Position numbers and translations under genes: made by a program. Of a stretch of DNA of 64,000 nucleotides, positions 11,901-62,900 are shown in pieces. Every line of letters begins with the position of its first letter. Within the stretch, counting starts at the first letter, position 1. Below the pieces are notes generated by a model that was not told the origin of the DNA, searched no databases, and saw only the letters and a list, made by a program, of their open reading frames with translations. Source of the stretch: Aphrocallistes beatrix (Eukaryota; Porifera; Hexactinellida; Sceptrulophora; Aphrocallistidae); contig OY725505.1 of the NCBI GenBank assembly GCA_963281255.1, positions 2,294,001 through 2,358,000 of the forward strand, given 5' to 3'.

Positions 11901-14900
11901 GAATACTTCATGAAATACTCATTTTAGGGCATTCCAAGTGTGAAATTTGGAATCTACATATCAAAATTCCTTATATTAGTCGTTGAGAGCTCGCTTTTGA
12001 ATTAAATAATAATTTTTTCAAAAGGTGTGAAAATATGTATCTATCAATATGTTAATCCTTACTATTAAAACTCGATTAATGTGTATACGTAGGGCACTCG
12101 AAAAGTTTTGACGTTTGCTATGAAACCATTAATCTAGAAGAAAGATTTATTGCTAATTCGTTTCATTCTGCGGTTATTAGTATACACTGAAAATTTCATT
12201 CATTTATCTTTTATACTTCCAGAAATATTTGACTTGTTAGTCTGCATGGCTTCTAACTTGCTTACATCATCCTCAGATTTCACAAGACGAGATCTTCGTG
12301 CAATGATTTTGATTTTATCCAAAATGAAGAAGACGAGGCAGGAGATCCATGAAACTTTACAGGAACATTTCCCAGATGTTGCTCCTTCCTTGAGTACAGT
12401 TGAGCGATGGTGCAGAGAATTTACTCATGGGAACTTCGTTCTAGAGGATGCTCCTCGTGCAGGGAGGCCGAGTGTTTCCCACAATGAACAAAATGTGGAT
12501 CAAGTACTGGAACTAGTGATCCAGGATTCTCATGTTACATACGCTCAGATAGAGCATGAAACTGGCCTCTCATCGGGGACTATTAATGTCATTATACATA
12601 AAGAACTTTGTCTACGAAAGTTGTGTGCTTGCTGGATCCCCCATTCTTTGACTTTAGAGCAAAAATCGGCCCGAGTTGACTTTTGTAAAATTATGCTCAA
12701 AAGATTTGATAATGGAACTGCAAGGGCTGTTTCTGATATTCTTACAGGGGATGAAACATGGATATACCATTATGATCCGGAAACAAAACAACAATCGAAG
12801 GAGTGGGTGGAAGAAGATGCTCCACCTCCAACAAAAGTACGAAGGGCGAAATCTGTAGGGAAGCAAATGTGGGAAATTTTTTTCAGATCCAGTGGGTTTG
12901 TAGCAGCTGTGGCGCTTGAGGATAGAAAAACAGTTACTGCCGATTGGTACACCACAGTATGCCTCCCCAAAGTCATCACTGAAATAAATTATCAGCGTGA
13001 AAAGGCGGGTGTCAGGGGAATTTTGCTCCATCATGATAACGCATCATCTCACACCGCACTCAGAACTCGCGAGTTTTTGGAAGATTCTGGACTTAGAACA
13101 CTACCCCATCCTCCGTACAGTCCAGACCTAGCCCCTTGCGACTTCTGGCTGTTCCCTACGATTAAGAATGAGTTGCGTGGAAGGAGATTTTCATCGAATG
13201 AGGAGCTGGTGGGGGCACTTTTCAAGGTAATCGAAGCCATACTCAAAGATGAGTGGAAAATGTGTTTTCAGAAGTGGTTTAGTAGAATGAAAAAATGTAT
13301 AGAGTCTCATGGAGAGTATTTTGAAAAAATGCAATATAAATCTTCATACTAACTATTTGATATGTCGGTGAACGTCAAAACTTTTCGAGTGCCCCTCGTA
13401 TATGTGTATATATATATATAAGGCTGATTTTTGGCATGTGGGAGTCTTTTGGCTATGGCTCCAGTAAGTTCTGAGCTCAGACGAAAATGTCGACTCATCA
13501 TGGAATTATGACGTCATTGTCACATTTTTAAAAGTTAAGCAACACAATTTATTCGGGCATAACTCAGCCATTATAGGAGATAGAAGGCTGAAATTTTAAT
13601 AGAATCTGTATACAAACATATTTCACATATGATGCAACTATCATCAAAAATGATGACTCATCACTATGTGATGACGTCATCATTACACATCAACATTTTA
13701 AAAATGACAAATTTGGTGTTTTTTCGAGTGATATCGATTTTAAAACTAAGATGGACATATTTAGAGATGATATATCCCGTTTTATTAACCAATGTCACCT
13801 CCAGGCGACCGAAGGGAGCCTCCGGCGGACACGAAGTGTCCGCTAGCCACGCAACGCAAGCAAGCGAAGCGCGCTTGTAACTCTTAAAATGTTCATATTA
13901 TTACTTTCAAAGTGCGAAAATCGGATCCTACATGGTGAAAAACCCTACATTAGTCATTGAGAACTTATCTTTAAACAAAGCTTTGCAGTGGTGGTGTTAA
14001 AATATGAATATACATGGTGGCTTTTAAGTTATTTCCCAAGCTTCATTAGGTATAAAATTTCTTATACTCAAACAATCTCAGTTATTATGGTCTTTAGAGA
14101 TTGTAATTCAAATATTCTCAATGATTTTAAAAGATTTTTCGTGTCTAAGACCTAGAACTTTGTGGTGAGTTTTGTGAAGAAAATATGTGTCCTGGTGCGC
14201 AGAGAAATTCGAGAATCAGGGCCCACTGCTTTTCAAATTATCTTTCTAGAGCAAGGGTTCTCAACCTTTTACGAACTGCGTATCCCCTGAGGCGAAAGGA
14301 AAAATCCAGGTACCCTCAATTCAAATCTAGTAAGATTCCACTTAAATGTTATATGCATAATTATACACTGAATTCATATAACTGACTAACCTGTCTGTTT
14401 AATGCCAACCTTTTGGCCTTTTCAAAAGAAATGATATTCCAGAATTGGAGAAGATTCTTTAGTTGAACAACTTTAACAATCTATTGATATATAAAAACAT
14501 GAATACTTAGGTCATTTCATTAGTACTGAGCCGTTATCTGTATTCAGAAGTTAGTAGAATTATCTTATTTTCGATTTGTCCGTTGTATAGCTCAGGGGAT
14601 CAGCTTTCGATTTGCCTACAGAATTACCATGATAGGACAATAATTGTGGTGGTTCCTACATCCGATTTAAGTACATCAGTTTAGGACACTGCCTTCAAAC
14701 GTGATTTTTGAGTTTCCTAAGGCTGTATTTCATTTCTAAGCAAATTTAGATTAAAACTGATCCTTCCATTAAATTACACATAAAAAAACAAACATAAATA
14801 TTGATTTATTTGTAGTATTATGGTTTTAGGCTGGGGAATAAATCGTTACTATTAAAACTCGATTAATCTATATGTATATATCTATATCTGTAACGAATTG

Positions 14901-29900: not shown

Positions 29901-32900
29901 TACCTTTCAGATTGAAAAATATTCATTAAATCATGATTCTTCAATGTGTATCCAGTTCCCAACATATCTTGAGTTACACAAGTATTGTCGCCAATCAGAT
30001 TGTGATATTTTCCGCCAATCCTATCACCACATTCTGGACAATTGCTCTCAGTCCAAGGTCTTCCGCACTAAAAATAAATAAGCATTAGTACAATATCAAA
30101 GCTGAACTTTACATTTCAAGTAGTTACTACTTCGACATTAAAGTCAAATAGCTAAATTCTCAAAGGGCACTCGCAACCGGGACGGGAGTATGCTTACACG
30201 TTCCATAGATAATGAATCGTCACCCTAGGAATATAGGATTACGCCCTCATCCTGTCAGTGAGGCTTTTCCCATTCTGAACATACCAATAATGTCCACTTC
30301 GATAATTATAAGTATTTGAAATATATTAAAATTGGGTTTACCAGGAATGTGCTGCGTCATTTCTGACTAAAGCCATTTTCTATGGGGGAGCCATACAATT
30401 TTAGGGTTCAAATTATAAAATAGAAATAATCCATCGAACATTGACTATTTATTAGGGACAATGTTAAAGGCTTTCCTGATAATAATATACAAGCGCGCTT
30501 CGCTTGCTTGCGCTGCGCGATTGGCGGACACTTGTATCCGCAGGAGGCGCCCTTTGAGCGCCTAGGCTGACATCTCTAAATACGCCTGTCTAACTGTTAA
30601 AATCGATATCACTCGAAAAATCACAAAATTTGTCCAATTTTTCAATGATGCGTATTATGACATCATAACAGTGATGAGTCATCATTTTTATATCATAGTT
30701 GTATCATATATAAGATATACAAGCGCGCTTCGTTTGGCTTGCACTGCGCACCTAAAAGGCTGAGTTATAGTCGAAAAACTGAAATGACATAATTCCAGAT
30801 GAGTCGACATTTTCGTCTGAGGTCAGAACTTAGTGGAGCCATAGCCAAAAGACCCCCACATGCCAATAATCAGCTTTCTGGGCTTGGTAGTTACTATATA
30901 GTTTTTCTATAATTCTGATTCCATTAACGTTAATTTAACCCCTAATCACTGGAAAGATCGTATAACATTAAATTTCTCTAGATTAATACAAACTACATGT
31001 ATACCAAGGTGTTAAAATGTATTGAATTCAACTTACATCGCCAATAAAGTAGATATGTCCATTTTTACAAGTATACCAATTTCCAGTAATATTATCACGT
31101 ATTTGAGAAAATTCCTTGGCAAAATCAGATCCAGATTCTTCCATTGTTGGGAAATAAGTATTTAGTATTGACTCGGGATTAATGTAAATAAGTGAAATCT
31201 GAAAGAAGATCTTAGGAAATGTTTGGGATATTAAGACATTGCCTAGATTAAAGAGTAGTCTCGCTATTGCTATATCTTCACTTCTAAGAACATCTGTACC
31301 AAGAAAGGTTGTAAAAATTAGGTTTTTCAACATTAGATGTGGATTTGCATCCATATTTGAATCATCAATTTCATCTTCTTCTTTTATCATATGAAAGAAA
31401 GTCTAAACGATTTAGATAAATAACATAATGCAAAACCAGGAAGCTATTTCAATAAAAAAAAGATGCTAGTAATAAAACATTAATTACGTTTAATCACAGT
31501 GTTAGAGCACGGGACCCAACCTAACTGCTTATAATTAAGCAAATTTGGCCATCCAACATTAGAATAATTTTTATCGAAATAGTATCCTATCTCTCAATTA
31601 GAGGGAAATGATCGGATAAAGAGTCATTGGAAATTTCTGAAAAATTCTAAACTTTTCAAATCAACTAGTAATAACCTTGTTTCTACGCGAAATCACACCT
31701 TAATGCCATTTAGAAATAGGGTTAAAACAGCTTAGAAAATCGCTAAAATCGTCCTTAGAATGACCTGTTGCGCAATGATATGATGACTAATCAAATTTTT
31801 ACCAACAAATATACCATGTACTCATGTTTATATATCCTGGTAGTGGTAAACATTCTTAAGGTCTATTCTGCATGGCAACGATTTTAGGTTAATCATGCAT
31901 TATTTCAATCGGCTACTACTTCATCCCTAGTCCATAATGTTCAGTCTACTGTGAGGCATTATTAGAGTAGGCTATGGTATACTTTATTCTTCTTTCGAAA
32001 ATCGAAATCATTTTACTATGTGTACAAACGAGAGCAGACAAAAAATAGTGAAAACATAAATTTAAAATAACCGCAACAAACCTTATCAAGCGATACATCA
32101 TCTGGAGGATTCTGGTAGTGCATATTGAGAGCACAATTAAACATCGATAAAGTAAGGATATTTTTATTAATATTCGACATCTCCTAAAATCATATTAATT
32201 AAAATAAAAAATAGCAGAGCTAATGGCAACAACTATGAAATGGAGAGTTCAGAGTTTTCAAAGTACCAAACCATAATATCCTCTTTCAATTCTCAATGGA
32301 ATGTTGCTAACTTTCAGCGTTGCGATGCAAATGTATTTTACCAATATAGACTGGTATCTTGAAAACCAAAAGGGTTAGACAGTTAAATGTAATCTTATAA
32401 AATATGAAACAACCTACTTCTAATTAAATAATAATACAATTTGTACATTTAAAATCTAAATTCGATTGTTTTAGTTAACGAACAATTTACCAAAATGTAA
32501 CCAATATGATATATTCGTTTTCAAGATACAGCCTCAATTGATGTAGATTTCCATAGCAACGCTGGAAACAACATTTCTTTGAAAATTTCTACATTTTTCA
32601 AATCAACTGCCCCACCTGGTGTTGGTGGAAAATCATATTTAAAAGTGTGCTTAAAACAGGTCAGAAATTTGTCAAAATATGTCTTAAATATAGCTAAATA
32701 CGCAAGAATATGTCTAATCATGCTTTTCCAATAGATATGGATACTTCAATACCATTTTTACAAATGCTGTTAACCTGCGGTTGGCTTGGTGTTTTTTCCA
32801 TTTTTTATTGGAAAATCTAGGTACCTAATTTATGGGACGGGACGAGTCAATATGCCTAATTTACGGGACGGGACGAGTTAAGATGCCTAATTTACGGGAC

Positions 32901-41900: not shown

Positions 41901-44900
41901 TTAGAGGCGGTTTACGGACATTTCTAAGTGTTTTTAATATAAAGTATGTATTCGCATAGAACCGAGCTGTGAATGGGTTGATGCGAAAAATTTGAATTTT
42001 TTCTTGGAATCTGACTACATTACAGCGTTGCTATAGAAACGTATTTCGGTTAGTTGGGCTCATATATAAAAAATAGGGATTCTTGATCCTATTTGATAGC
42101 CAATAGACTACTTCCTATTAAGTGATAATATAATTTGTCTAAATTCAATAGTTTACGAGTTATTTGATGACAATACATTCCGACACTCTATTCTGCGTAG
42201 TTAATGATTTTAAGCAGTTCATGTATTAGTTTTACCATCTTATAGCCCATCCATAGTCCCAAATCCGCAGGTTACTGTTAGGCCCTATATATAGTAGGCT
42301 ATGATTGAAGAAACTACCGATCATATAAAGTTCGATTCATATACAACCGAAGATTTTATCAGTGGCTCGAATATGAATCTCAGACAAAACGTTAACAGAA
42401 CAAATTTCTGTTTGCTGGGCGTACCATTTTATGAGTTAGAAGGTTGGAATTTTAATTCATGGATGTATAAATATTCTTCACACGGTACTTAGACTCCTTT
42501 ATGTAAGGACTGTAGCCGTTCAATCTTAGGTCCTGGAACTTGGGTCCGTCCATTGTGTATTATTGATATCTCAGAATCCGCTCAAGTTAGACATGGGAAA
42601 TGTATTATTGTTAAATAGGAAGTCATATTTTTGGAGTCCCTTGTTCAAGTAGCTTACCTCAACTATGTGTGGAATGTGAGTTATGCGGTTTTCACAGCTG
42701 ATTTTCACACATTTTTATCAATTTTGGTGATATTCTGACCTGTTTTAAAGGGGCCGCTGCATTAGTTCGAATTTGGACAGTTGGCATTAGTTCGACAATA
42801 ATTTCAGACAGTTGGCATTAGTTCGACAGTAATTTCAGACAGTTGGCATTAGTTCGACAGTAATTTCAGACAGTTGGCATTAGTTCGACAGTAATTTCAG
42901 ACAGTTGGCAAATAATCGCAGAAAGGTCTGAAATTACTGTCGAACTAATGCCAACTGTCTGAAATTATTGTCGAACTAATGCCAACTGTCTGAAATTACT
43001 GTCGAACTAATGCCAACTGTCTGAAATTACTGTCGAACTAATGCCAACTGTCTGAAATTACTGTCGAACTAATGCCAACTGTCTGAAATTACTGTCGAAC
43101 TAATGCCAACTGTCTGAAATTATTGTCGAACTAATGCCAACTGTCCAAATTCGAACTAATGCAGGCGCCCCGTTTTAAACAAATTTTAAAGCGGATGGTG
43201 ATACATATTCTTGCTAATTTAGAATATAATACGTACATACAAGTACGCTTCGTGCACTTGCATAGCGAAGCGAGCGAACACTACATGGCCGCAAAGTTGC
43301 TGTGCGGACGCTTGGAGATATCAAATAATTTAGAGACCCCGACACCGCATAATATTGATTATCTTTCACTAATCCATTTCGAAAATGTTTAGTTTATTTC
43401 TCCATTGCAAACAAAAAAACTCACAGATGGGAGTGTGCTTCTAAAATAATTATCTTGAGAATACACATGTGAAAGGTGATTTTATTCAGTCACTGTACCC
43501 AGATTTTACATTTGTTGATTACTCACCATGGCGTTATCATAATGTAAGCATATTTTGTAGATACACCAATAGTGTACCTTTGGTATTAATATGGAACCGG
43601 CCGGACAACAGCATTAATTTTAGAATTGTGCACTTATACTGTACTATTTATATGACCATATATCCTAGTATATGATAGTATAGGAAGCACATAATATAAC
43701 TACTAACCACAGTTTCTAAAAAATACGATACTCAGAATCTACATCCCTAAAACCACAAATTCTCTTAGGTTGCAAAAATATATGTTAGTGTAACGGGTAG
43801 ATGTCCATAGCTAGACATAGGACATAGACATAGTATGAATAATCGAAGATAACCCACATGGAGTGAATACCTGCATAATCAAGTGTTAGTCTTTAGGCTT
43901 AGACTTATTTAGTATTTAGGATAATTCATAGCCTACTATACATAAGGCCTCACAACTGATTGTGGATTTTGGACCAGGGATGCGGAAGAAGACCGTTGAA
44001 CTAATGCATGAGCTGCCTTAAATCATTTACAAAGCACAATAGAGCTTAGGAATATATTATCAGCATATATAAATATGGTGTCAAAGTACCCATATCCATT
44101 GTTAAAAATTTGATTAGTCACCATATGGTTGCGCAATAGGTTATATTTGTGACAAATTTGGTGATTTTCAGAGGCTGTTTAGGGGCACTTCTAAGTGTTT
44201 TTACTGTAAATTTTTTCGCATAGAACTGAGATATGAATGGGTTAATACGAAAATTTTGGATTTTTTTCATGGAATGTTGGTACATTCCAGTGTTGCTATG
44301 GAAACGTGTTTTGGTCAGTTTAGGTCATATCTTGAAAACCACAAGAGCTAGACATTTAAATGTAATTCCATTTGATTGGAACTATACTACTTCCTATTAA
44401 GTGATAATATAATTTCAACCTCTAAATTCAATAGTTTATGAGATAATCGACAAATTATCAAATGTGACCAATATGGTACATTGTCTAATATCTCATAAAC
44501 TATTGAATTTAGAGGTCGAAATTATATTATCACTTAATAGGAAGTAGTATATTCACTATCAAATGGAATTACATTTGAATGTGTAGCCATTGCAGTTTTC
44601 AAGATATAACGCCAACTGACCAAAACACGTTTCCATAGCAACACTGGAATGTACCAACATTCCATGAAAAAATTCCAAAATTTTCGTATTAACCCATTCA
44701 TATCTCAGTTCTATGCGAAAAATTTACAGTAAAAACACTTAGAAGTGCCCCTAAACGGTCTCTGAAAATCACCAAATTTGTCACTAATATAACCTATTGC
44801 GCAACCATATAGGGACTAATCAAATTTTTAACAATGGATATGGGTACTTTGACACCATATTTATATATGCTGATAATATATTCCTAAGCTCTATTGTGCT

Positions 44901-47900
44901 TTGTAAATGATTTAAGGCAGCTCATGCATTAGTTCAACGGTCTTCTTCCGCATCCCTGGTCCAAAATCCACAATCAGTTGTGAGGCCTTATGTATAGTAG
45001 GCTATGAATATTCATTACTTAGTTCACTTATCGTTTGTTCATTAATTATTAGATTTCTGACCCTTTCAATTGTGATCTAGCCTTTGTTTAATAGTCACTA
45101 ATCAAAGCGTAATATTAGTATTCTAGACAGCAACTGAGCAACAGTATATAAAAACTTACTTATTTCCTTCAATTTTGTATTTCTCGCTTGTCTTGGCACT
45201 TGAGTACAGTTTGCAAACAACTCCTACTATATCCAACATAGGATCATCACTAGAAAAGTCTGCTCCTTTTAATAACTAGAAAATAAATAAAAATTTGCAA
45301 TTACTAATATATAGAAGAATTTCAAGAATAAATAAAAAATATCCCTAAATTGCAAATAAACATAAATTTGTTGATAAAAGCATCTAACATAAAACATCAA
45401 TCTTTCTCCACCTTTCTCATGTCGTACAATCTAGAAATCCCACAAAACCCGTGCTGCTAAGTGAATAGTCGAGCAACGTGAGAAATTGGAGCTGTACTGA
45501 AATATCTTCTTGATACTATCTAGCTTGCCAGCGATAACATACTATGTACGTACCCCTAAGTAGCTAGCTTCTGAAATACCCTCTTACCTATTTTTAGTGT
45601 GCTTATGAAGTAGATTCAGAGATGAAACGCTTACAAAAGGGCGGGTTTAGTCGGAATGGTTCTTTTGTAATAGGGAGTAGTTGTTTTGTGGTGGGTTTAG
45701 TATGGAAATACTGATATTTTATTATTAGGGGGAGGGGAAGGATTCGGTTTCTTTGATTCGTGGAAAATATACCACGTAAGATTTTAATTACAGTTTCGAA
45801 GTCAAGGCAATTAAATTCAAAAATTTGGGTCTGCCTCATGGACCTAAAGAAAGTCCTCGCCCACCAAAAGCTATGCATAACGATATTTGTAATCAGAAAA
45901 CTTTCAGCAATTTGAGGGGTCAGTGTTATATTCGCCGCACTTTATCGCCAAGAATATCGCCAGTAACAGCCAAAAGCTACCATCCCTGGAAGTCCATCAT
46001 ATATTTTCCAACTCTGAGATGATATTCCTTGCCAAAAATTAACATTAGCATTAGTCCCTCGATTTGGACCCACCAACCCCTGGCTCAAGGACTAGGACGT
46101 TTTATTTTCAAAATTTGTTGACTACACCATGTATAGTGTCCCAACTTCTGAAATAACCGGCTGGCGCATTTTTTAGGTTACTAACTTCTTTTATAAAGTG
46201 ACCTACTTCTAAAATATCCAGTGAGTGTATTTGTTTTTGTTTTGTTGTTTCAAGTAGAATTTTTTAAAATAATTATTCATGATTAAATGGTCCTTGAACT
46301 TAAATACTTAGCCTACTTATATAGCCTAGCTATTATATAGCCTACAGTATATAAGGCCTCACAGTAACTTACGGATTTGGGACTAGGGATGCGGTAGAAG
46401 ATGGTTGAACTTAAACATGAGTTGCCTTAAATCATTAACAAAGCACAATAGAGCTTAGGAATGTATTACCAGCATATATAAATATGCAGGGTTGGCTAAT
46501 TTAACCCCCCCCCGGGTTAAACCCGGATTTAACCCGGGTTAAACCCGGGCTGGGCAAAACCCCCCTTTGTGGGTTAAACTGGGTTAAAGTGGGTTTTATT
46601 CTAATGTACTTGTAAATCAAGTTAATTTTAGCGATATCAATTGTTTGGATTGAAAATCCTTATACTGCAAGTATTATATTGAGATTCCGTAATGATGTTT
46701 TTAATAAGAACTGATGTACGAACATGGAATTTCTTAAAAGTTACAACAATCTGAAGTGCTTTAAGTAAACAATCAAAATATACTAGTATATAGAGCAGTT
46801 TGTTCATCTTACCTACTCTAATCATAGCAGGTACTACATATATAATGGCAAGTTTTGTTGGTGGCCCAGTGATCCTGTTCAAAGCTTTTTTTCTAAAAGT
46901 AGAAGGTCCAAGGTGAGGCGCATAAATACTTCAATTGAGCGGATATTTTCTAACTTTAGTTTAGTCCAGAACAAACTTCGAAATAGATTAGACTTAGAGA
47001 ACCAGCAAAATTGGTAATCTGTTATCGGGAATTGAGAGGTTCAGTGGAGTTTGAATGGTGATTTGCTTTTCATTTGTTTTAGATTTTCATTAGTGTATTA
47101 GATTTTGATATGCACCTCTTACAATAAATACGCTAATATAATTAATTATATCGTTGAATTTGAAAACAAAGACAATGACTGGGAAAATCCGTTTCTGGAG
47201 AATAAAACCCGTTTTAACCCGGGTTAAACTAATTAAACCCGGATTTTACCCGGGTTTAACCCACTGGGCTGGGCAAAACCTATTTAACCCGGTTTAAATT
47301 CCAACCCTGTAAATATGGTGTCAAAGTACCGACATCCGCTGTTAAAATTTTGATCAGTCACCATATGGTTGCGCAATAGGTTATATTTGTGTCAAATTTC
47401 GGTGATTTTCAGAGGCCGTTTAGGGGCATTTCTAAGTGTTTTTATTAAAAGTTTTTTCTCATAGAACTGAGGTGTTAATGAGTTAATGCGAAAAAGTGGA
47501 TTTTTTTCATAGAATGTTGCTACATTCCAGTGTTGCTATGGAAACGTGTTTTGGTCAGTTGGGGTTATATCTTAAAAACTGCAAAAGTTACACATTCAAA
47601 TGTAGTTCCATTTGATAGCGAATATGCTACTTCAAATTAAGCAATAATATAATTTAGACCTCTAAATTCAATGGTTTACGAGATATTCGACAAATTACCA
47701 AATGTGACCAATATGATACATTGTCGAATATCTCGTAAACCATTGAATTTAGAGGTCGAAATTATATTATTGCTTAATAGGAAGTAGCATATTCGCTATC
47801 AAATGGAACTACATTTGAATGTGTAACTTTTGCAGTTTTTAAGATATAACCCCAACTGACCAAAACACGTTTCCATAGCAACACTGGAATGTAGCAACAT

Positions 47901-50900
47901 TCTATGAAAAAAATCCACTTTTTCGCATTAACTCATTAACACCTCAGTTCTATGAGAAAAAACTTTTAATAAAAACACTTAGAAATGCCCCTAAACGGCC
48001 TCTGAAAATCACCGAAATTTGACACAAATATAACCTATTGCGCAACCATATGGTGACTGATCAAAATTTTAACAACGGATGTCGGTACTTTGACACCATA
48101 TTTATATATGCTGGTAATACATTCCTAAGCTCTATTGTGCTTTGTTAATGATTTAAGGCAACTCATGTTTAAGTTCAACCATCTTCTACCGCATCCCTAG
48201 TCCCAAATCCGCAAGTTACTGTGAGGCCATATATACAGTAGGTTATGATATATCTATATCTATATATCTGTAACGAATTGATTGAAGAAACTGCCAGGCG
48301 CAGAAAGCTGATTTTTGGCATGTGGGAGTCTTTTGGCTATGGCTCCAATAGATTCTGAGCTCAGACGAAAATGTCGACTCATCATGGAATTATGACGTCA
48401 TCGTCAATTTTCGACCATAACTTAGCCATTTTAGGTGATTACAGGCTGAAATTTTAATAGAATGTGTATATTAATATATCTCACATATGATGTAACTATC
48501 ATCAAAAAGAATGACTCATCACTCTGTTATGACGTCACCATTACGCATCAAAATTAAAAAAATTGACAAATTTGGTGATTTTTCGTGCGATATCGATTAT
48601 GACAGTACGACAGACTATTTTGATATGTTACCTACCTTATAATTAATCAATGTGACCACAGGTTCCCAAAGGGCACCTCCAGCGGACACAAAGTGTCCGC
48701 CAGCCGCGCAGCGCATGCAAGCGAAGCGCGCTTGTAGATAAATAATAATGTTGCTAAGAATGATTGGGTAATTTTCATAGCTAGTTGTCTGCTATAGTAG
48801 TATTCAGGTTTCCCAATTTTCTATCCTTTTGAAGTGACCTTCTAGAATACTAATGAATCAAGTAAAGAGTGGCTAAAACTCTATCGTAATTTTGTATTTC
48901 CAAGAACACTTATGCTGCCACCACAACAGATGAGGATTTTCACATTGGGAATTTTCGCCATTTTCTCAAAAGGATTCCAAACCATAGATTTGGATCTAGT
49001 TACCAAAATTCCTTTGACTAATAAATCGGTAGCTTAATCTTATTTATTAGTCGATGTGATTATCAATACTGAAAATTTTTTGAAAATTTAAACTATATCC
49101 ATTCTCTGTAATACTTATGTATACGTATAACTATAGTTGCATTGTATGCTTACTCAGGTAGTTTTACGCCTTGTTCCATTCTCACAAACTTGTTATATCT
49201 TAATAACGGTATAATCGTGTAACATCTGGTTAATTGGCTTCAATTACCCGGTTCCTCTGACTTGAAATACCCGGGTTTTGAATAAGAATAGAAATTTAGG
49301 AACCGGGTAATATCCGGGTATTTGAGACCCGGGTCCCACCTCTAAATTGTACTCATTAGTTCGAATTGATCTTCAAAATAATGTCAATAGTTTGAATATA
49401 TTTTCAATGTACTGTCATTAGTTCAAATACTATATGACCAGCGTATTATTTGTTGCTAACACCGAAGTTAACAACGTACATTTGAGGTACGAATTTCATA
49501 TAATACAATTGTTAAAGCTTTTCCAATTTCTCATATTCTCAGCAGAAAATGCTGCTTTTCCCTCAGTTCTTATACATAGCTCTCCATAATGGCAACCACC
49601 CCCTTCGTTCAGAAATGCCCTTTTCATTCTCAATTTTCTACTATTCTCAGCAGAAAATGCTGCTAACTAACGACTGCATTGAAATTCGAACTAATGCTGC
49701 GTCCACACATATATGTATACGTATATGCAATGAATTTATTGAAGAAACTGCCAGGCACAGAAATCAGAATTTTGGCATGTGGGAGAATTATGATGTCATT
49801 GTCACCTTTTTTATTAGAAATTTCAGTCTTTCGACTATAACTCAGCTATTTTAGGTGATGGAAGGCTGAACTTTTAATATAATGTATATATTAATATATC
49901 TCAAATATGATAAACTTTCATCAAAAATGATGACTCATCACTCTGTTATGACATCATCATTATGCATCAAAAAAAAATTTAATAATTGACAAATTTTGTG
50001 ATTTTTCGAGTGATATCAATTATAACAGTAAGACAGACATATTTAGAGATGTTATCTACTATATTATTAATCAAAGTTCGCCTAGGCGCCCGCACGGCGC
50101 CTCCTGCGGACGCAAAGTGTCCGCCAGCCGCGCAGGGCCATGCCCCACTGGCTAAGCAACACTGTGTTAAGGTATACAAATTAATAGAAATAATTCTATT
50201 AGACTTGCCTTATGAAGTGTGTTGAGTGAATTACTAGTGAATTTTAAACCATTCTTCAGACTGATTTTTGATATAAAAAGATATATAACTAGAATTTCAT
50301 CCCATCTAGATCTAAAAAATAAATAAATAAAATAAATAAATAAGTTCCGAAATTAAATACATTTTTTTAATATCAACTTTTAAATATAGCATTAGGAAAG
50401 GTATTTCCTCATTAAAATTGTCGACACGAAAACATTTGAGAATTCTCACCTTAGATACTACGCCAATGAATTGAATTGAAAATCGTATACTGAGGTGCAC
50501 ATCTACATGTCTCACTGCACTATTCCTGAAAAATTGAATCCCTTAACTGGCTAAACCAGTGTAACTTTTTAAGGAGGTCCAGGGCCGTTTAAAGAATTTA
50601 CCAAGCCTAGAGCAATGCGGGGCCAAATAAAAAAATCCCTATAATTTGATTAAGTCGGTCCAATGATGTCCATGCCACAGAATTAAACTCGGGGCAAATG
50701 CCCCGGATCCACCCCCAAAGGAGTCAAATATCGATCACTTAACTAACAGTTATTTTTGTCACCCATGGAGAATAATTTATATGAATTTATCTTACTGGTA
50801 AATATCTTCATGATATGAATGTTTCACCAAAATAATAGATAAATCTCTGATAAATAGGGGCCATCCCCTCACTTTTCAGAGGTTAATCAAGTTTATACGT

Positions 50901-53900: not shown

Positions 53901-56900
53901 TTTATCAAATTTAAAAATTTTGATGAGTAATGATGACGTCATAACAAAGTGATGTGTCATCATTTTTGATGATAGTTACATGATATGTGAGGTATGTTAG
54001 TATATAGATTCTATTAAGATTTCAGCCTCCTATCTCCTATAATGGCTGGGTTATGCTCGAATAACTCTGTTGCTTAACTTTTAAAAATGTGACAATGACG
54101 TCATAATTCCATGATGAGTCGACATTTTGCTCTGAGCTCAGAAACTTAGTGGAGCCATAGCCAAAAGACCTCCACATGCCAAAAATTAGCTTTCCATGAC
54201 CGGCAGTTTCTTCAATCAATTCGTTACAGATATATATATATATATATACATTAATCGAGTTTTAATACAAGTAGTAAGGATATACGTATACAAACATTAA
54301 TCGAGTTTTAATAGTAAGGATGTTAAACTATGACCATAGCCTACTATACATAAGGCCTGTTGCGTGGAATTCTGAGACGCATAGAATATTTTGAGACACT
54401 AGTGTTATCGAACCATGGATTGCGTAGAATTTTGAGACGCATAGAATACTGAGACTGAGTTCACTAGCTACGTATATAATCTCAATATTATTCATTCATC
54501 CCCAAGATTTCACTTGACCTGATTTTTTGCTTTCATTATGCCACTGTTATTAATATAAAACTTGATTCAGCTCCAAAAGAACCATCAATGAGGGGTGTGG
54601 GCCGGTGATATTCTACATCATAACTAATTATGTCGAATGTATATATCCCAATCATTCGTAATCAATACCCTTACACCTGAAGTGCTGATTGAAATAATGA
54701 CAATATATGTGGCAGCTAATTATTGATGCGGGCAGTGGGGCTGAAACAAGTTTTCAGCGGCCTTATAAAATGTATTTGATGTTATGTGCTTTTCGCCTTA
54801 GAATTATAAATGGATCGTTTGGAGTACGTCCGAACATTTAAATTCTTAAAGCATGGAAAATATCCAGATGGATTTTCCCGTCAACAGAAGTGGAACTTCA
54901 AGAGGAAGTTGACCAGATTTTTCGTATCTGAGTCGGACATACTCTACAAGGTGAGTACGATCTAATACTGTAATTCTGGTATTTACGGTTTATTCAAAGA
55001 TTTTTTAAAAGCGAATAGAAAGTATTCTAAAATATAGCTGCTTGACCGGCTACTGACCTTTATATTTATTAATTTTAATTAATAAATTAATTACCATATT
55101 AAGATATCGTCAGTTAAACACTCAATTATTTTAAGTTCTGAAAAAACTTGACCTGTTTCATGCATAAACATTTCCGAACGAATTTTCGTCTTGGAGTATT
55201 TTATTAAAACATATTTGTATATCGTTTTTAATTGTATTAATTACAGAGAGAGATAATAGATGAACAGGAGAGAGACTTCCAGGTTCCATCCCGTGATGAT
55301 GTCCCGAGTATATTGGAAAAATATCATGACCATCTTTTACATCCTGGAATGAATTCCACTGCCCAATCAATTCAGCAGCGCTATTACTGGATGGGGATGT
55401 ATACAGAGATTGTGAACTACGTGAGTTTGGCATATTATTAATGACGAGTCTTTCACTTTCATTACTAATTAATTAATTAAACAAAATTAATCAACCATTG
55501 TATGCTAGGTAAAAACTTGTGATGCTTGCCAGCAAAATAAAGCTTTGCCACCTCAGCCACAGAAAAAGTTACAGCCGATTCCTCCTCCAGAGAGGCCGTG
55601 GAAGCATATAGGGATTGATCTCGTGTGTGATCTCTCTCCAAGTCCGGATGGTTACAAACACATTCTCGTTACCGTCTGCTACTTGAGCAAGTATGTAGTG
55701 GTGCGACCTCTCAAGACCAAAACCGCCGATGAAGTAACCGCAAATCTGAAAGATATATATCTCGATGTTGGTGTTCCAGATATTATCCAACACGATCAAG
55801 GCAAAGAGTTCACTAGCAATGTAAGCTATGATTTTGCAATCATATATGTAGAAGATAGGATAGTCATATTGTTTTCCGCCCTTTTAGATTTTTCAGCAAT
55901 TTCATCAGAAGTTAGAAGTTGACAACCGCAGTACTCGTGCCTATCACCCGATGGCAAATGGGTTGGTCGAGGCTCATAACAAGATTTTAAAATCGTATGT
56001 GGTAGTATTTCATCCATTTATAAGTTAATCAATTATCATTGTTTAATGATGCATTAAATTCTAGCAAGTTGAACAGGATGACCTTTCAGACTGGGCAACA
56101 TTGGTCTACTCTACTCAAGCCTGCAGTCTTATGCATGAACTCGACTTTTAAGAAGTCTCACTCGTCTACTCCATTTCAGGTCATGTGGGGACGAGAATCT
56201 AAATACGAAAATTTAGTCTCTGATATATCTAAGATCAAAATAGCTCCTGATGAAGACTATCAACTAGAAGAGGCAATTTTATCCGAGACCTTACCAGCAC
56301 AGGAGTGCGAAATGCTAGATACCTTTTCCCCTCCAGAAGACCACCTTGAATCAATTCACTTCCTGAATGAGTCAAGGAACAATACCCGGAAACGTGCAAA
56401 TGTCTTGATTAAATCAGAGCAGCTAAAGCAGAAGAGGCAATATGATAAGAAAGTCAACGAAAAGAGGTATGCTATTTTTATTATTTACACGAACATAGTT
56501 CATATTGATTATTATTTTTAATACATGGTGTAGGTGCAAACTTAAGGAAGGAGACAAAATCCTATTCACCAACATGCCTAAATTAAAACAGATGCCCAAC
56601 ACTAAAAGTCAGGGTAAATTTTTGGGACCTTTTACAGCGTCTAGAATTACTGATAGTCATGCGATCATTTCAAAAGAAGAATTAAATTCCAAAAGAGATA
56701 AGAAAGTACCCATCCATATCACACAACTCTACTACGAACGTCAAGAAATTGATAGTAGACTCTCTAATACGAAATCTACGGAAAAGAGGAAAGTTGATCT
56801 GACATCTGATAGCCGAGAAACCAAAAGAATGAAGCTTTCACAAGTACGTATGTTCAATATTTCACTCAATGCATCATGATATGATTTGCTTATTTGCCCT

Positions 56901-59900
56901 TCTTCTCTAGACCCCACACACTGAATTTGGGTTTACAAGTGAAGTAATTCATAATCATCTCTCGAACCTCAAGGTGATTTGAATAGTTATTTGTTGTAAA
57001 GTAATCATCTCGTGATTTGTTTCATAATAATGCTGACGCCAAACTACTATTTTTTCATCGAAATTCTTGTACCATGTTTATTTAAAATTATCACTAGACA
57101 AAATAATTGTGCAACTGTATGTTGTGAGCTTTTCATGAGAATCATTTTCTCAATCACTAGATTATTCTCAATGACAACTTGAGGAGAGGTACTTTCATGA
57201 CACCCTTACATGAAGATCTACATAGGAAACTGAATAGATTCCACCATTACGTCCCCAATATCCTCATTTTTCAGTTTCTTAAGGACTCGAACGCGGATCA
57301 GTTGGTACTTTTTGAACATTTAGTAATTGCCAATTCTAAAACTTATGATTTAAAATAACATATTGACTTTAGAAGAAAGAAATCAGGGAAACTGTTCTGA
57401 GCTGGACTTCAGATTTATATCCAGAATTAGGAGATATTATGGCTGCTAAATACGCTGAGAAAGTACTTTATGGAGTTGTGAGTTATATTTAATAAATTGT
57501 GTCCAGATAAAATGCATAAAAATAGTCTAATGTATATCAAACTATTCTATGAATTCATATTTTATAAGTGCGCAGTTCGAAACATTCGAATGACTACGTT
57601 TTAAAATTTATATTATAACATTTATACTTTAGGCTATCCAGTATTTGAGTTCCATGCTTTGGGATTCATTCCCTGACAACTCGAAATCCAGAAGCCCCGA
57701 GATCCCTAGCTCCAGTCCTAAAATCCAAGTTCTTTCAGAAGGGTGGCTAAGAGAGAAATGCGATTTATATGGACTCAAATTCGACTCTGTAATTCGGCAA
57801 CCCGGTAACCTCGCAGGCCAACCACTTAGCTGTTATCAACCATGGGAGACCGAGAGCATAGTAGGAGATGGTAACTGTTTGTACAGATGCCTAGCGAAAG
57901 TATTTACTGGCAAAGAAGATAACTATCCTCAAATGCGTAAAATTATATCTCATTTTATCGCCTCTGAAGGAACAACGAAACTCGCCTGGTACTTCAAACA
58001 AAAACAAACAACCCCATGTGACTACCTTCTAAATGAGAATCCCTGTCATCTTAATGGAATTTGGGGAAGCGATGTGGAAATAATGACGGCCTCTTGTATC
58101 TTCAATGTGGATATATATGTAGCGACCAAGAACAATCAAGGAAGCTCGCTTATTCGAGTTGTTAGATGGAACCTGCATAGAGCCACTGACAATCCTGAAG
58201 CAGCCATCTACATCCAAAATTTTAATCTCCATTATGAACCAGTCACCTCAATGATAAACTGCGCCACTCCTTCTTATGGAAACATACCCGGAGATGTTCA
58301 GACTCTTGACTAAATACTAGCTTCTTCACACTTTACTGTACGGACTCGGTGTTTACAAACAAACAATACTATACGGACTACGTGTTTACATATGGACCTA
58401 GTTGGCAACTAGCCAGCCTGATGAGTCTTAGATAGACGAAAGGCCCGTATTTTTTCTGATGATTATAGCATTAATTTAACAAATAACACAACACCTATCT
58501 TCAAGCTAAGAGGAGAACAGTCTGATTTGTAATTAATGGATGCAAAAAGTATTTCGATGTCTCAAAATTATAACGAAGTAGACACTTTACAAGTTAACTT
58601 AACGACAGCACGATTATCTGATTAATTGCAATATATGAGTGTTATGAAATCATGTACTACCGATTGCTAAACTACTAAATAACCAACAATATAATTCCAT
58701 TGTAGTAAATATCTTTATATTCTATTTATTTGGTAAATAAACATTTTTATGTTGGTATATGCATTTTATTTATTTATTATTAAACGTGTTCACGTTCTTC
58801 CAATTATCTTGTAAAGTACACTCTAGGGGAGGGTTTGATTTAGTTATTAGGATAGCCTGTATTAAAATAATTGACACTAAATCTAATAGAAATGTCTCAA
58901 AATTCTACGCTCGCTATTTGCATTATAAATCTAATTGAAATGTCTCAAAATTCTACGCTCGCTATTTGCATTATAAATCTAATTGAAATGTCTCAAAATT
59001 CTACGCTCGCTATTTGCATTATAAATCTAATTGAAATGTCTCAAAATTCTAAGCTCGCTATTTGCATTATAAATCTAATAGAAATGTCTCAAAATTCTAC
59101 GCTCGCTATTTGCATTATAAATCTAATAGAAATGTCTCAAAATTCTACGCTCGCTATTTGCATTATAAATCTAATAGAAATGTCTCAAAATTCTACGTTC
59201 GCTATTTGCATTATAAATCTAATTGAAATGTCTCAAAATTCTACGCTCGCTATTTGCATTATAAATCTAATAGAAATGTCTCAAAATTCTACGCTCGCTA
59301 TTTGCATTATAAATCTAATTGAAATGTCTCAAAATTCTACGTTCGCTATTTGCATTATAAATCTAATAGAAATGTCTCAAAATTCTACGCTCGCTATTTG
59401 CATTATAAATCTAATAGAAATGTCTCAAAATTCTACGCTCGCTATTTGCATTATAAATCTAATTGAAATGTCTCAAAATTCTACGCTCGCTATTTGCATT
59501 ATAAATCTAATTGAAATGTCTCAAAATTCTACGCTCGCTATTTGCATTATAAATCTAATTGAAATGTCTCAAAATTCTACGCTCGCTATTTGCATTATAA
59601 ATCTAATTGAAATGTCTCAAAATTCTACGCTCTCCATAGTTCTATAACACTAGTGTCTCAGAATTCTATGCGTCTCAAAATTCTACGCAATCCATGGTTC
59701 GATAACACTAGTGTCTCAAAATTCTATGCGTCTCAGAATTCCACGCAACAGGCCTCACAACTGATTGTGGATTTTGGACTAGGGATGCGGAGGAAACCGT
59801 TGAACTAATGCATGAGCTGCCTTAAATTATTTACAAAGCACAATAGAGCTTAGGAATATATTATCAGCATATATAAATATGGTGTCAAAGTACCCATATC

Positions 59901-62900
59901 CATTGTTAAAAATTTGATTAGTCACCATATGGTTGCGCAATAGGTTATATTTGTGACAAATTTGGTGATTTTCAGAGGTCGTTTAGGGGCACTTCTAAGT
60001 GTTTTTACTATAAAATTTTTCGCATAGAACTGAGATATGAATGGGTTAATACGAAAAATTTGGAATTTTTTCATGGAATGTTGGTACATTCCAGTGTTGC
60101 TATGGAAACGTGTTTTGGTCAGTTTGGGTCATATCTTGAAAACCACAAGAGCTAGACATTTAAATGTAATTCCATTTGATTGGAAATATACTACTTCCTA
60201 TTAAGTGATAATATAATTTCAACCTCTAAATTCAAAGGTTTATGAGATAATCGACAAATTATCAAATGTGACCAATATGGTACATTGTCGAATATCTCAT
60301 AAACTATTGAATTTAGAGGTCAAAATTATATTATCACTTAATAGGAAGTAGTATATTCGCTATCAAATGGAATTACATTTGAATGTGTAGCCATTGCAGT
60401 TTTCAAGATATAACGCCAACTGACCAAAACACGTTTCCATAGCAACACTAGAATGTACCAACATTCCATAAAAAAAATTCCAAATTTTTCGTATTAACCC
60501 ATTCATATCTCAGTTCTATGCGAAAAATTTACAGTAAAAACACTTAGAAGTGCCCTTAAACGGCCTCTGAAAATCACCAAATTTGTAACAAATATAACCT
60601 ATTTCGCAACCATATGGTGACTAATCAAATTTTTAACAATGGATATGGGTACTTTGACACCATATTTATATATGCTGGTAATACATTCCTAAGCTATATT
60701 GTGCTTTGTTAATGATTTAAGGCAGCTTATGCATTAGTTCAACGGTCTTCCTCCGCATCCCTGGTCCAAAATCCACAATCAGTTGTGAGGCCTTATGTAT
60801 AGTAGGCTATGCTATGACTAATTCGAATGCCTAGATTTTGAATCTGAAATCAGATTTTTCGTATCTCTTTGAATTTGAACGTACGTATTGCCCTACCATA
60901 GCCTACTCTAATAATGCCTCACAGTAAAATAACCAAGGATTCGGTAATAGCCGAATGGATTAATACACGATTAGCCTAAAATCGTTAACCATGAAGAATA
61001 GGCATTAAGAATGTATTACCAGCATATATAAACATGGTATCAAAGTATATACATCCGTTGTCAAAATTTCGATTAGTCATCATATCATTGCGCAATAGGT
61101 CATTTTAGGCACTATTTTGGCAATTTTCTAAGCTGTTTTAAGCCTACTTCTAAATGTTATTTAGGTAGAATTTTTGTGTTGAACTAAGATTAGTACGAGT
61201 TGATTTGAAAAATTTAGTATTTTTTAATGGAATGTTGTTACATTCCTACGTTGCTAGTAAGCATTTTGATCAGTTTGAGCCATATCCTGCAAACTGTAAG
61301 AACTAGGTCTTCAAATCTGAGCGCATTTGATAGGCAATTGGCTGCTTCCTATTAGGTAATAATACAATTTAAACTTCTAAATTAACAGACTACAGAGTTA
61401 TGCGTCAATTTAGTGTTGTTTTGGTCACATTCTTAAAATCAACCCATAACTCAAAACTCGTTGAATTTAGAAGTTCAAGTTGTATCATCACCTAATAAGA
61501 AATAGTCGATTGCCTATCAAACACGATCAAATTTGAAGACCTAGTTACTACAGTTTGCCCGAAATGGCCCAAACTGACCAAAATGCTTTACCATAGCAAC
61601 GCTGGATGGTAACAACATTCCATTGAAAAATTCTAATTTTTCAAATCAACTCTTACTAATCTTGGTTCAACACTAAAATCACACCTTAATACCATTTAGA
61701 AATAGGGTTATAACAGCTTTGAAAATCGCTAAAATTGTCCTTAGAATGACCTGTTGCGCAATGATATGATGACTAATCGAAATTTTTACAACGGATATAT
61801 GTACTTTGATACCATGTTTGTATATGCTGGTAATACATTCTTAATGCCTATTCTGCATGGTTAACGATTTTAGGCTAATCGTGTATTAATCCATTTGGCT
61901 ACTACTTCATCCCTAGTCCATGATTTTCATTCTACTGTGAGGCATTATTAGAGTAGGCTATGGCCCTACATTAAAAAATCTGATTTAGTATTATTTGTAT
62001 GAGAAAGAATGTTGAAATATTTGTTCATGTCATAAGGGCATCTCCCTAAAAAAAACTAGACAGAAATCTTTTAAGGGAAATTCATGATTTATGGGTGAAA
62101 ATTGAAAAATTGTTAGAAAAGCCTACTTTCGGGGGGAATGGGGTTGGAACCTTTTCTACAGTGAAGCCCAACATTAGTCGTTGAGATATTACTTATGTAT
62201 TTCTTAAAAAAAGCTTTATGTACTACATGCAAAATTTGATTAAATCGTTAGATTTCGTAGTATCTATCACGCGTGCGTACATACATACAGGCAGACAGAC
62301 AGACATACATAGAATGCCGTCCATGCCATAACGACATCTCCCTCCAGGACGTACTAAAAAATTTGAGAATCCTGAAGCGTCATATTTGACATGAATAAGT
62401 GATCATTAAAATTTTTTGTCAAATTCAATTGCTATCTAATAGCTCTTACTGTGTCTAAAAACAGCGAACAATAAATCCATGAGGGACGATTGTTGCCTGT
62501 GCTATACGTATATACAATTGGCAAACTATAATTAACTGACCTTGAATTGCTCTTCATCATAAAATGTAATAGACATTTTAATGAAATCTTTTAAATAATA
62601 CTCTAAAAATTCGTCACTTTTTACATCCTTCATTAAAACATCGTTCACTAATTGTCCGATAGGAGAATTGTCAAAAAGGATATTATATCTTTGAAGAGGA
62701 ACAGAATAACCTAAATAGTTCAAAGGAATGATAAAATAATATCAAAATTAATTCAAGTAGAATATTATATAATTTCTAATTGTAAATAACTTAAAATGTC
62801 AAAGCATAGCTTACTGCAGTGGTTCCCAACCTGGGGTCCATGGACCCTTGGTGGTCCACAGAAGATATCAGGGGGTCCACCGGATTTGAATTTTGTATTA

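Follow-up and report, generated by a model that had tools for sequence, protein, structure and literature searches.

The hexactinellid sponge Aphrocallistes beatrix carries on contig OY725505.1 (GCA_963281255.1) what an earlier note, made from the letters of the DNA, described as a structurally complete and possibly active Ginger transposon with an OTU domain, raising the question of whether this element is indeed complete, whether it moved recently, and what its parts may do. Here, the whole stretch of 64,000 nt that was analyzed (positions 2,294,001 to 2,358,000, forward strand) is referred to as the window.

A Ginger1-like transposon inserted into a foldback element

The element is a Ginger1-like DNA transposon of 5,393 bp that spans positions 54358–59750 of the window; its features are collected in table 1. 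Both ends and the perfect GGCC duplication lie exactly where the earlier note had placed them, as do the D,D35E triad and the OTU Cys/His pair and, together with an open ten-exon gene, the ends and duplication support the description of a Ginger-type element that is structurally complete and has an OTU domain. The proposed nine exons had to be revised, because the gene model has ten exons separated by nine GT-AG introns. The coding sequence is free of lesions, as had been stated, but the left inverted repeat contains two extra bases (AT, 54386–54387) compared with a near-identical copy, L011, on contig C8. The extra AT splits the second motif copy of the left inverted repeat, which is unmatched in the window element and matched in L011.

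Table 1. Coordinates of the Ginger1-like element and its immediate flanks in the window
Feature	Position	Strand	Remark
Interrupted foldback element, left arm, outer part	54335..54353	+	
Target-site duplication, left	54354..54357	.	GGCC
Terminal inverted repeat, left	54358..54455	+	98 bp, first bases TGTTG
Exon 1	54810..54950	+	ATG at 54810; KYPDG upstream of zinc finger; start aligned in families A, B, D
Exon 2	55247..55420	+	HHCC zinc finger (Integrase_H2C2, residues 65–117, runs into exon 3)
Exon 3	55509..55820	+	Integrase core, D142 and D201
Exon 4	55888..55994	+	Integrase core, E237 (D,D35E)
Exon 5	56065..56466	+	
Exon 6	56534..56843	+	GPF motif at residue 410
Exon 7	56911..56973	+	
Exon 8	57161..57304	+	
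Exon 9	57373..57477	+	
Exon 10	57633..58313	+	OTU protease-like domain (D665, C668, H786) and stop codon
Tandem array	58878..59632	+	48-bp unit, 15.7 units, terminal motif GTCTCAAAATTCTA in each
Terminal inverted repeat, right	59655..59750	-	96 bp, last bases CAACA
Target-site duplication, right	59751..59754	.	GGCC
Interrupted foldback element, remainder	59755..60811	.	Inner left arm, loop and entire right arm

The insertion point lies 23 bp within a foldback element, which the earlier note had taken as a sign of a datable insertion. We fused both flanks by script and matched the product to uninterrupted foldback copies. Across the junction, the fused flanks are 97.5% identical to the copy at 43927–44250, 96.6% identical to that at 44684–45006, and 95.7% identical to the opposite arm of the interrupted foldback itself (60489–60811). 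Because uninterrupted copies match across the fused junction, the element is an insertion whose empty site is visible, in agreement with a recent insertion into the foldback. The foldback family has many copies in the window (43927–45006, 47310–48247, 60275–60811, and others) and further copies in the fetched loci, and foldback-family sequence flanks three of the seven subfamily copies compared (window, L011, and L016).

The earlier note had also considered a transposon with a deubiquitinase-like domain inside a ubiquitin-ligase gene to be an odd juxtaposition. An RZ-type zinc-finger exon is located at 31028–31402 on the minus strand, about 23 kb from the insertion, and just passes the Pfam cut-off (27.7 bits vs. 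27.0); by eye, the next frame (29903–30067) resembles the second half of this same exon. RZ fingers are carried by RNF213-type ligases. Four minus-strand frames that are candidates for host-gene exons gave no usable match in PDB. No special explanation is called for when a transposon sits in an intron next to a ligase. Elsewhere in the window, a 404-residue open frame at 12138–13349 (plus strand) with mariner/Mos1-type domains (DDE_3, Transposase_1, and HTH_48) is possibly a further intact transposon, and 200 bases are N, all or most of them at about 1,690–1,990.

The transposase gene and its relation to Ginger1

The gene model yields an open frame of 812 residues. Pfam searches identified the HHCC finger at residues 65–117 (PF17921, Integrase_H2C2; 2.1e-18), the integrase core at residues 133–230 (rve; 3.5e-11), and the OTU domain at residues 664–781 (PF02338; 7.9e-8), and residues D142, D201, and E237 form the D,D35E triad. 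The GPF motif at residues 410–412 was recognized by inspection, and KYPDG (residue 17), with F and Y residues after it, is a candidate counterpart of the YPYY motif that precedes the zinc finger in Ginger1. In searches against PDB, residues 1–482 matched PFV integrase (5.2e-24) and Ty3 (5.3e-22), whereas the OTU exon matched OTUD1 at 7.2e-4 only, with weak matches to OTUD5 and to OTU-containing polymerase proteins from certain RNA viruses. All 18 aligned OTU exons have D, C, and H, without exception, at the positions of D665, C668, and H786. Eight of the nine intron positions (residues 47, 105, 244, 378, 482, 503, 551, and 586) are each found again in one or more other families, as judged by eye in a comparison that covered all junctions but that at residue 209. 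In a sister subfamily, F (L037 and L038), the intron donor near residue 379 appears by eye to be GC instead of GT.

The type, Ginger1-like with a ubiquitin-protease-like domain, is already known. Fusion of an OTU domain to a Ginger1 transposase was published in 2010 (Bao, Kapitonov, and Jurka; PMC2836005), and Table 1 of that paper lists the domain for 7 of its 16 Ginger1 families, so that its presence is not the oddity it had been taken for. As described in passages of PMC2836005, Ginger1 elements share with the window element a single transposase with an HHCC finger, DDE core, GPY/F motif, and C-terminal OTU (the described trait is a C-terminal OTU or Ulp1, and OTU is present here), inverted repeats of 40–270 bp with TGTNR ends, a 4-bp duplication, and introns in the transposase gene. 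At 812 residues, the protein is slightly longer than the about 500–800 residues given there. The same passages differ from our element in four respects: the duplication is CCGG/CCGT rather than GNNC, Table 1 gives 0–4 introns rather than nine, copies of the terminal motif form an array on the right side of the present element, and families are small, whereas the present genome has very many. For 112 Hydra elements, the duplication was CCGG (75%) or CCGT/ACGG (24%) (Bao et al. 2010, PMC2836005, in part). Because the published CCGG/CCGT feature failed here, we filed the element as a Ginger1-like variant.

Two other classes of element were compared. Ginger2/Tdd elements, as characterized in parts of PMC2836005, similarly have a Gypsy-integrase-like DDE domain, TGTNR ends, a 4-bp duplication, and fixed outer target bases (RTATAY there and AGNNCT here), but Ginger2 lacks GPY/F and uses AT-rich targets, whereas our element has GPF and OTU. 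A Gypsy LTR retrotransposon was rejected, since the ends are inverted and not direct and Pfam, run on the transposase, found no reverse transcriptase or RNase H domain.

Copies, age, and selection

Copies were sought in 100.5 Mb of genome sequence in 28 contigs; judged by eye, the mitochondrial contig is read best under the invertebrate code, with AGA as Ser and ATA as Met. L011 (C8:2146511–2155164) is a near-identical copy of the kind that the earlier note had proposed to look for: over about 4,520 bp ahead of the array, 9 substitutions, 4 of them within the coding sequence, and two 2-bp indels separate it from the window copy. Both copies have open frames, and their flanks are different. A third copy, L015 (C8:479643–484648), is intact in every exon and is flanked by a GATC duplication; compared with the window copy, its dS is 0.049 and its dN is 0.013 (24 synonymous and 25 nonsynonymous changes), giving a dN/dS of 0.26. 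For the OTU exon of subfamily F, dN/dS is 0.12–0.13 at a dS of about 1.2; 13 of the 15 OTU-exon comparisons were saturated in dS and gave no ratio. Judged from the sequences, the transposase is under purifying selection.

Among 11 examined coding copies of the window subfamily, these three have neither frameshift nor stop, contradicting the possibility that every copy is broken or old. The view that intact intron-bearing copies are uncommon did not hold: 27 of the best 30 OTU-exon matches are stop-free, as are all of the first 57 DDE-exon matches among the 150 that were scored. The genome searches gave at least 151 OTU-exon matches from 487 candidates (150 scored) and at least 150 DDE-exon matches from 721 candidates, both counts being lower bounds that include partial matches. 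Near-identical copies also exist in other families, for example L047 and L048 (99.7% identical). With the 104-residue DDE exon as query, no relatives on viral contigs were confirmed.

Several loci have histories of their own. L017 and L025 lie on different contigs and have identical flanks and 5' parts, which suggests a duplicated locus rather than transposition. L012 (C1:12351772–12354920) has unequal flanks (GTCC/GGAC), as does L022 (C12:242579–243135; GTAC/GCCC), which has two inverted left ends; both are rearranged or recombined copies. The termini of short elements L063, L082, L083, L084, L086, L089, L095, and L098 share sequence past their first 22 bases (CTTAGAAG type), with the L063/L064 pair only 376 bp apart, and these short elements are probably non-autonomous derivatives.

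We consider the element to be a Ginger1-like cut-and-paste DNA transposon that was recently mobile, with a probability of roughly 85%. That the gene is instead heading toward a host function is highly improbable: purifying selection on the OTU exon would fit such a role, but a host gene is expected to be single copy and without ends, whereas here ends and duplication are intact, young copies are many, and the element sits in a repeat. A less remote alternative, which we rate at somewhat below even odds, is that the window copy is complete yet now silent, having moved recently and then been shut down by the host or disabled by its damaged left repeat. The two additional bases in that repeat are consistent with silencing, as is the state of the fetched subfamily loci with coding pieces, 8 of 10 of which are broken or partial, but the fact that only 9 substitutions in about 4.5 kb separate the window copy from L011 and the selection on the protein argue against it.

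Target-site preference

A feature beyond the earlier note is the target of the recently mobile transposon and its relatives. The terminal 22-base pattern gave 93 matches in the genome and its reversed control none. We scored 84 termini, composed of 74 pattern matches starting with TGTT and ten termini from families A, B, and D. The adjacent four bases are GNNC at 78 termini and otherwise at 6, against a background of 2.9% of window positions; the 84 termini are not independent, because the two ends of one copy were scored separately and the flanks of L017 and L025 are identical. None of the 84 is flanked by CCGG, CCGT, or ACGG. When ends were paired, 16 of 19 duplications were perfect, with mismatches in L016 (one), L012 (two), and L022 (two). 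Base -5 is A at 66 of 84 termini (60 of 76 plus 6 of 8, the latter by reading rows). A 6-bp duplication, AGGCCT, with GTTG..CAAC ends would fit the window copy and most others; it was ruled out by L061/L062, L063/L064, and A1, which have no A at -5 or no T at +5 and still start with TGTT. Since these three matched pairs contradict the 6-bp reading, a 4-bp GNNC duplication fits better. The GNNC preference looks new; neither it nor an array of the terminal motif is reported for Ginger in the portions of the open-licence PMC literature available to us.

A tandem array of the terminal motif

The second feature absent from the earlier note is the array of 48-bp units that lies downstream of the gene, ahead of the right inverted repeat. 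The length of this array differs about five-fold between near-identical copies: 15.7 units in the window and 83.7 in L011, which are 99.8% identical apart from the array. The motif GTCTCAAAATTCTA recurs in both inverted repeats with a spacing of 17 and 41 bp. In the window element, it was counted 19 times on one strand and 2 times on the opposite strand; the corresponding counts for L011 are 88 and 3. Outside the element, the window has no copy of the motif. A homologous array is present in subfamily F (18.5 units in L038), in which the motif reads GTCTGA in 42 of 42 array copies and in the inverted repeats; the base that is G in these 42 copies is C in copies of the window subfamily. No comparable array was seen in families A, B, and D, of each of which one tail was scanned, so that mobility does not generally depend on an array. 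For the sister-family unit, a free satellite was rejected, as this unit matched 58 times in seven places, every one of them beside a Ginger exon or end match; the window-family unit gave 135 counted matches in the genome, 100 of which were listed.

The array could be a passive minisatellite without a role, a motif-bearing subterminal segment amplified by slippage, and we regard this as a real possibility that falls a little short of an even chance. Its unit number changes far faster than the remainder of the element, three main unit variants are mixed in a mosaic that contains repeated blocks, and the scanned tails of families A, B, and D have none, all of which such an origin would explain. 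However, the consensus unit is 80% identical between the window subfamily and F, compared with 58% for both the 3' untranslated stretch and intron 9 (shuffles, 53–54%); the outer 60 bp of the inverted repeat reach 85%. Because the array is homologous in F at a dS of about 1.2, it has outlasted near-saturation of synonymous sites. Moreover, the C-to-G difference of the motif is matched by the inverted repeat of the sister, so that the array has changed in step with the ends, a link that consists of a single concerted base change in two subfamilies. We infer that such persistence and concerted change would be the behavior expected of transposase-binding sites. The reading that we put forward tentatively, at rather less than even confidence, is that the element carries a one-sided, self-expanding array of its own recognition motif that may be under selection, may coevolve with the inverted repeats, and may through its length tune transposition as an enhancer or a sink.

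An array of an element's own end motif that changes this fast looks new. Galileo is reported to have long repeats that carry several transposase-binding sites (PMC3688188), and tandem repeats are reported to grow out of the foldback transposon Tetris (PMC4079207); these are P-superfamily or foldback elements, whereas the array described here is internal, one-sided, and part of a Ginger element.

A possible mechanism and its implications

By homology, the 812-residue spliced protein would fold like a retroviral or Ty3-type integrase, bind the recurring motif of about 15 bp (AGAATTYTGAGAC) within each inverted repeat, cut the TG..CA ends, and insert them with a 4-bp stagger at A-GNNC-T to leave GNNC duplications. 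The mode of Ginger1 excision is given as unknown in Bao et al. (2010, PMC2836005, in part). The OTU domain, with its conserved catalytic residues, probably works as a cysteine protease and strips ubiquitin or a related modifier from its substrates, which might be the transposase itself or chromatin or repair proteins at the insertion; passages of Bao et al. (PMC2836005) propose that OTU and Ulp1 domains act on ubiquitin/SUMO in transposition or repair. The one-sided array would most likely provide extra transposase-binding sites, the number of its units shifting fast through unequal exchange.

Among DNA transposons, Ginger1 elements stand nearest to the integrases of Gypsy and retroviruses. 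With several intact copies that moved recently and a clear palindromic target, the genome offers a ready experimental system in which to study how ends are recognized, how targets are chosen, and what the OTU domain does, the last a question that dates from 2010. It also supplies natural alleles whose main difference is the length of the array (16 vs. 84 motif copies).
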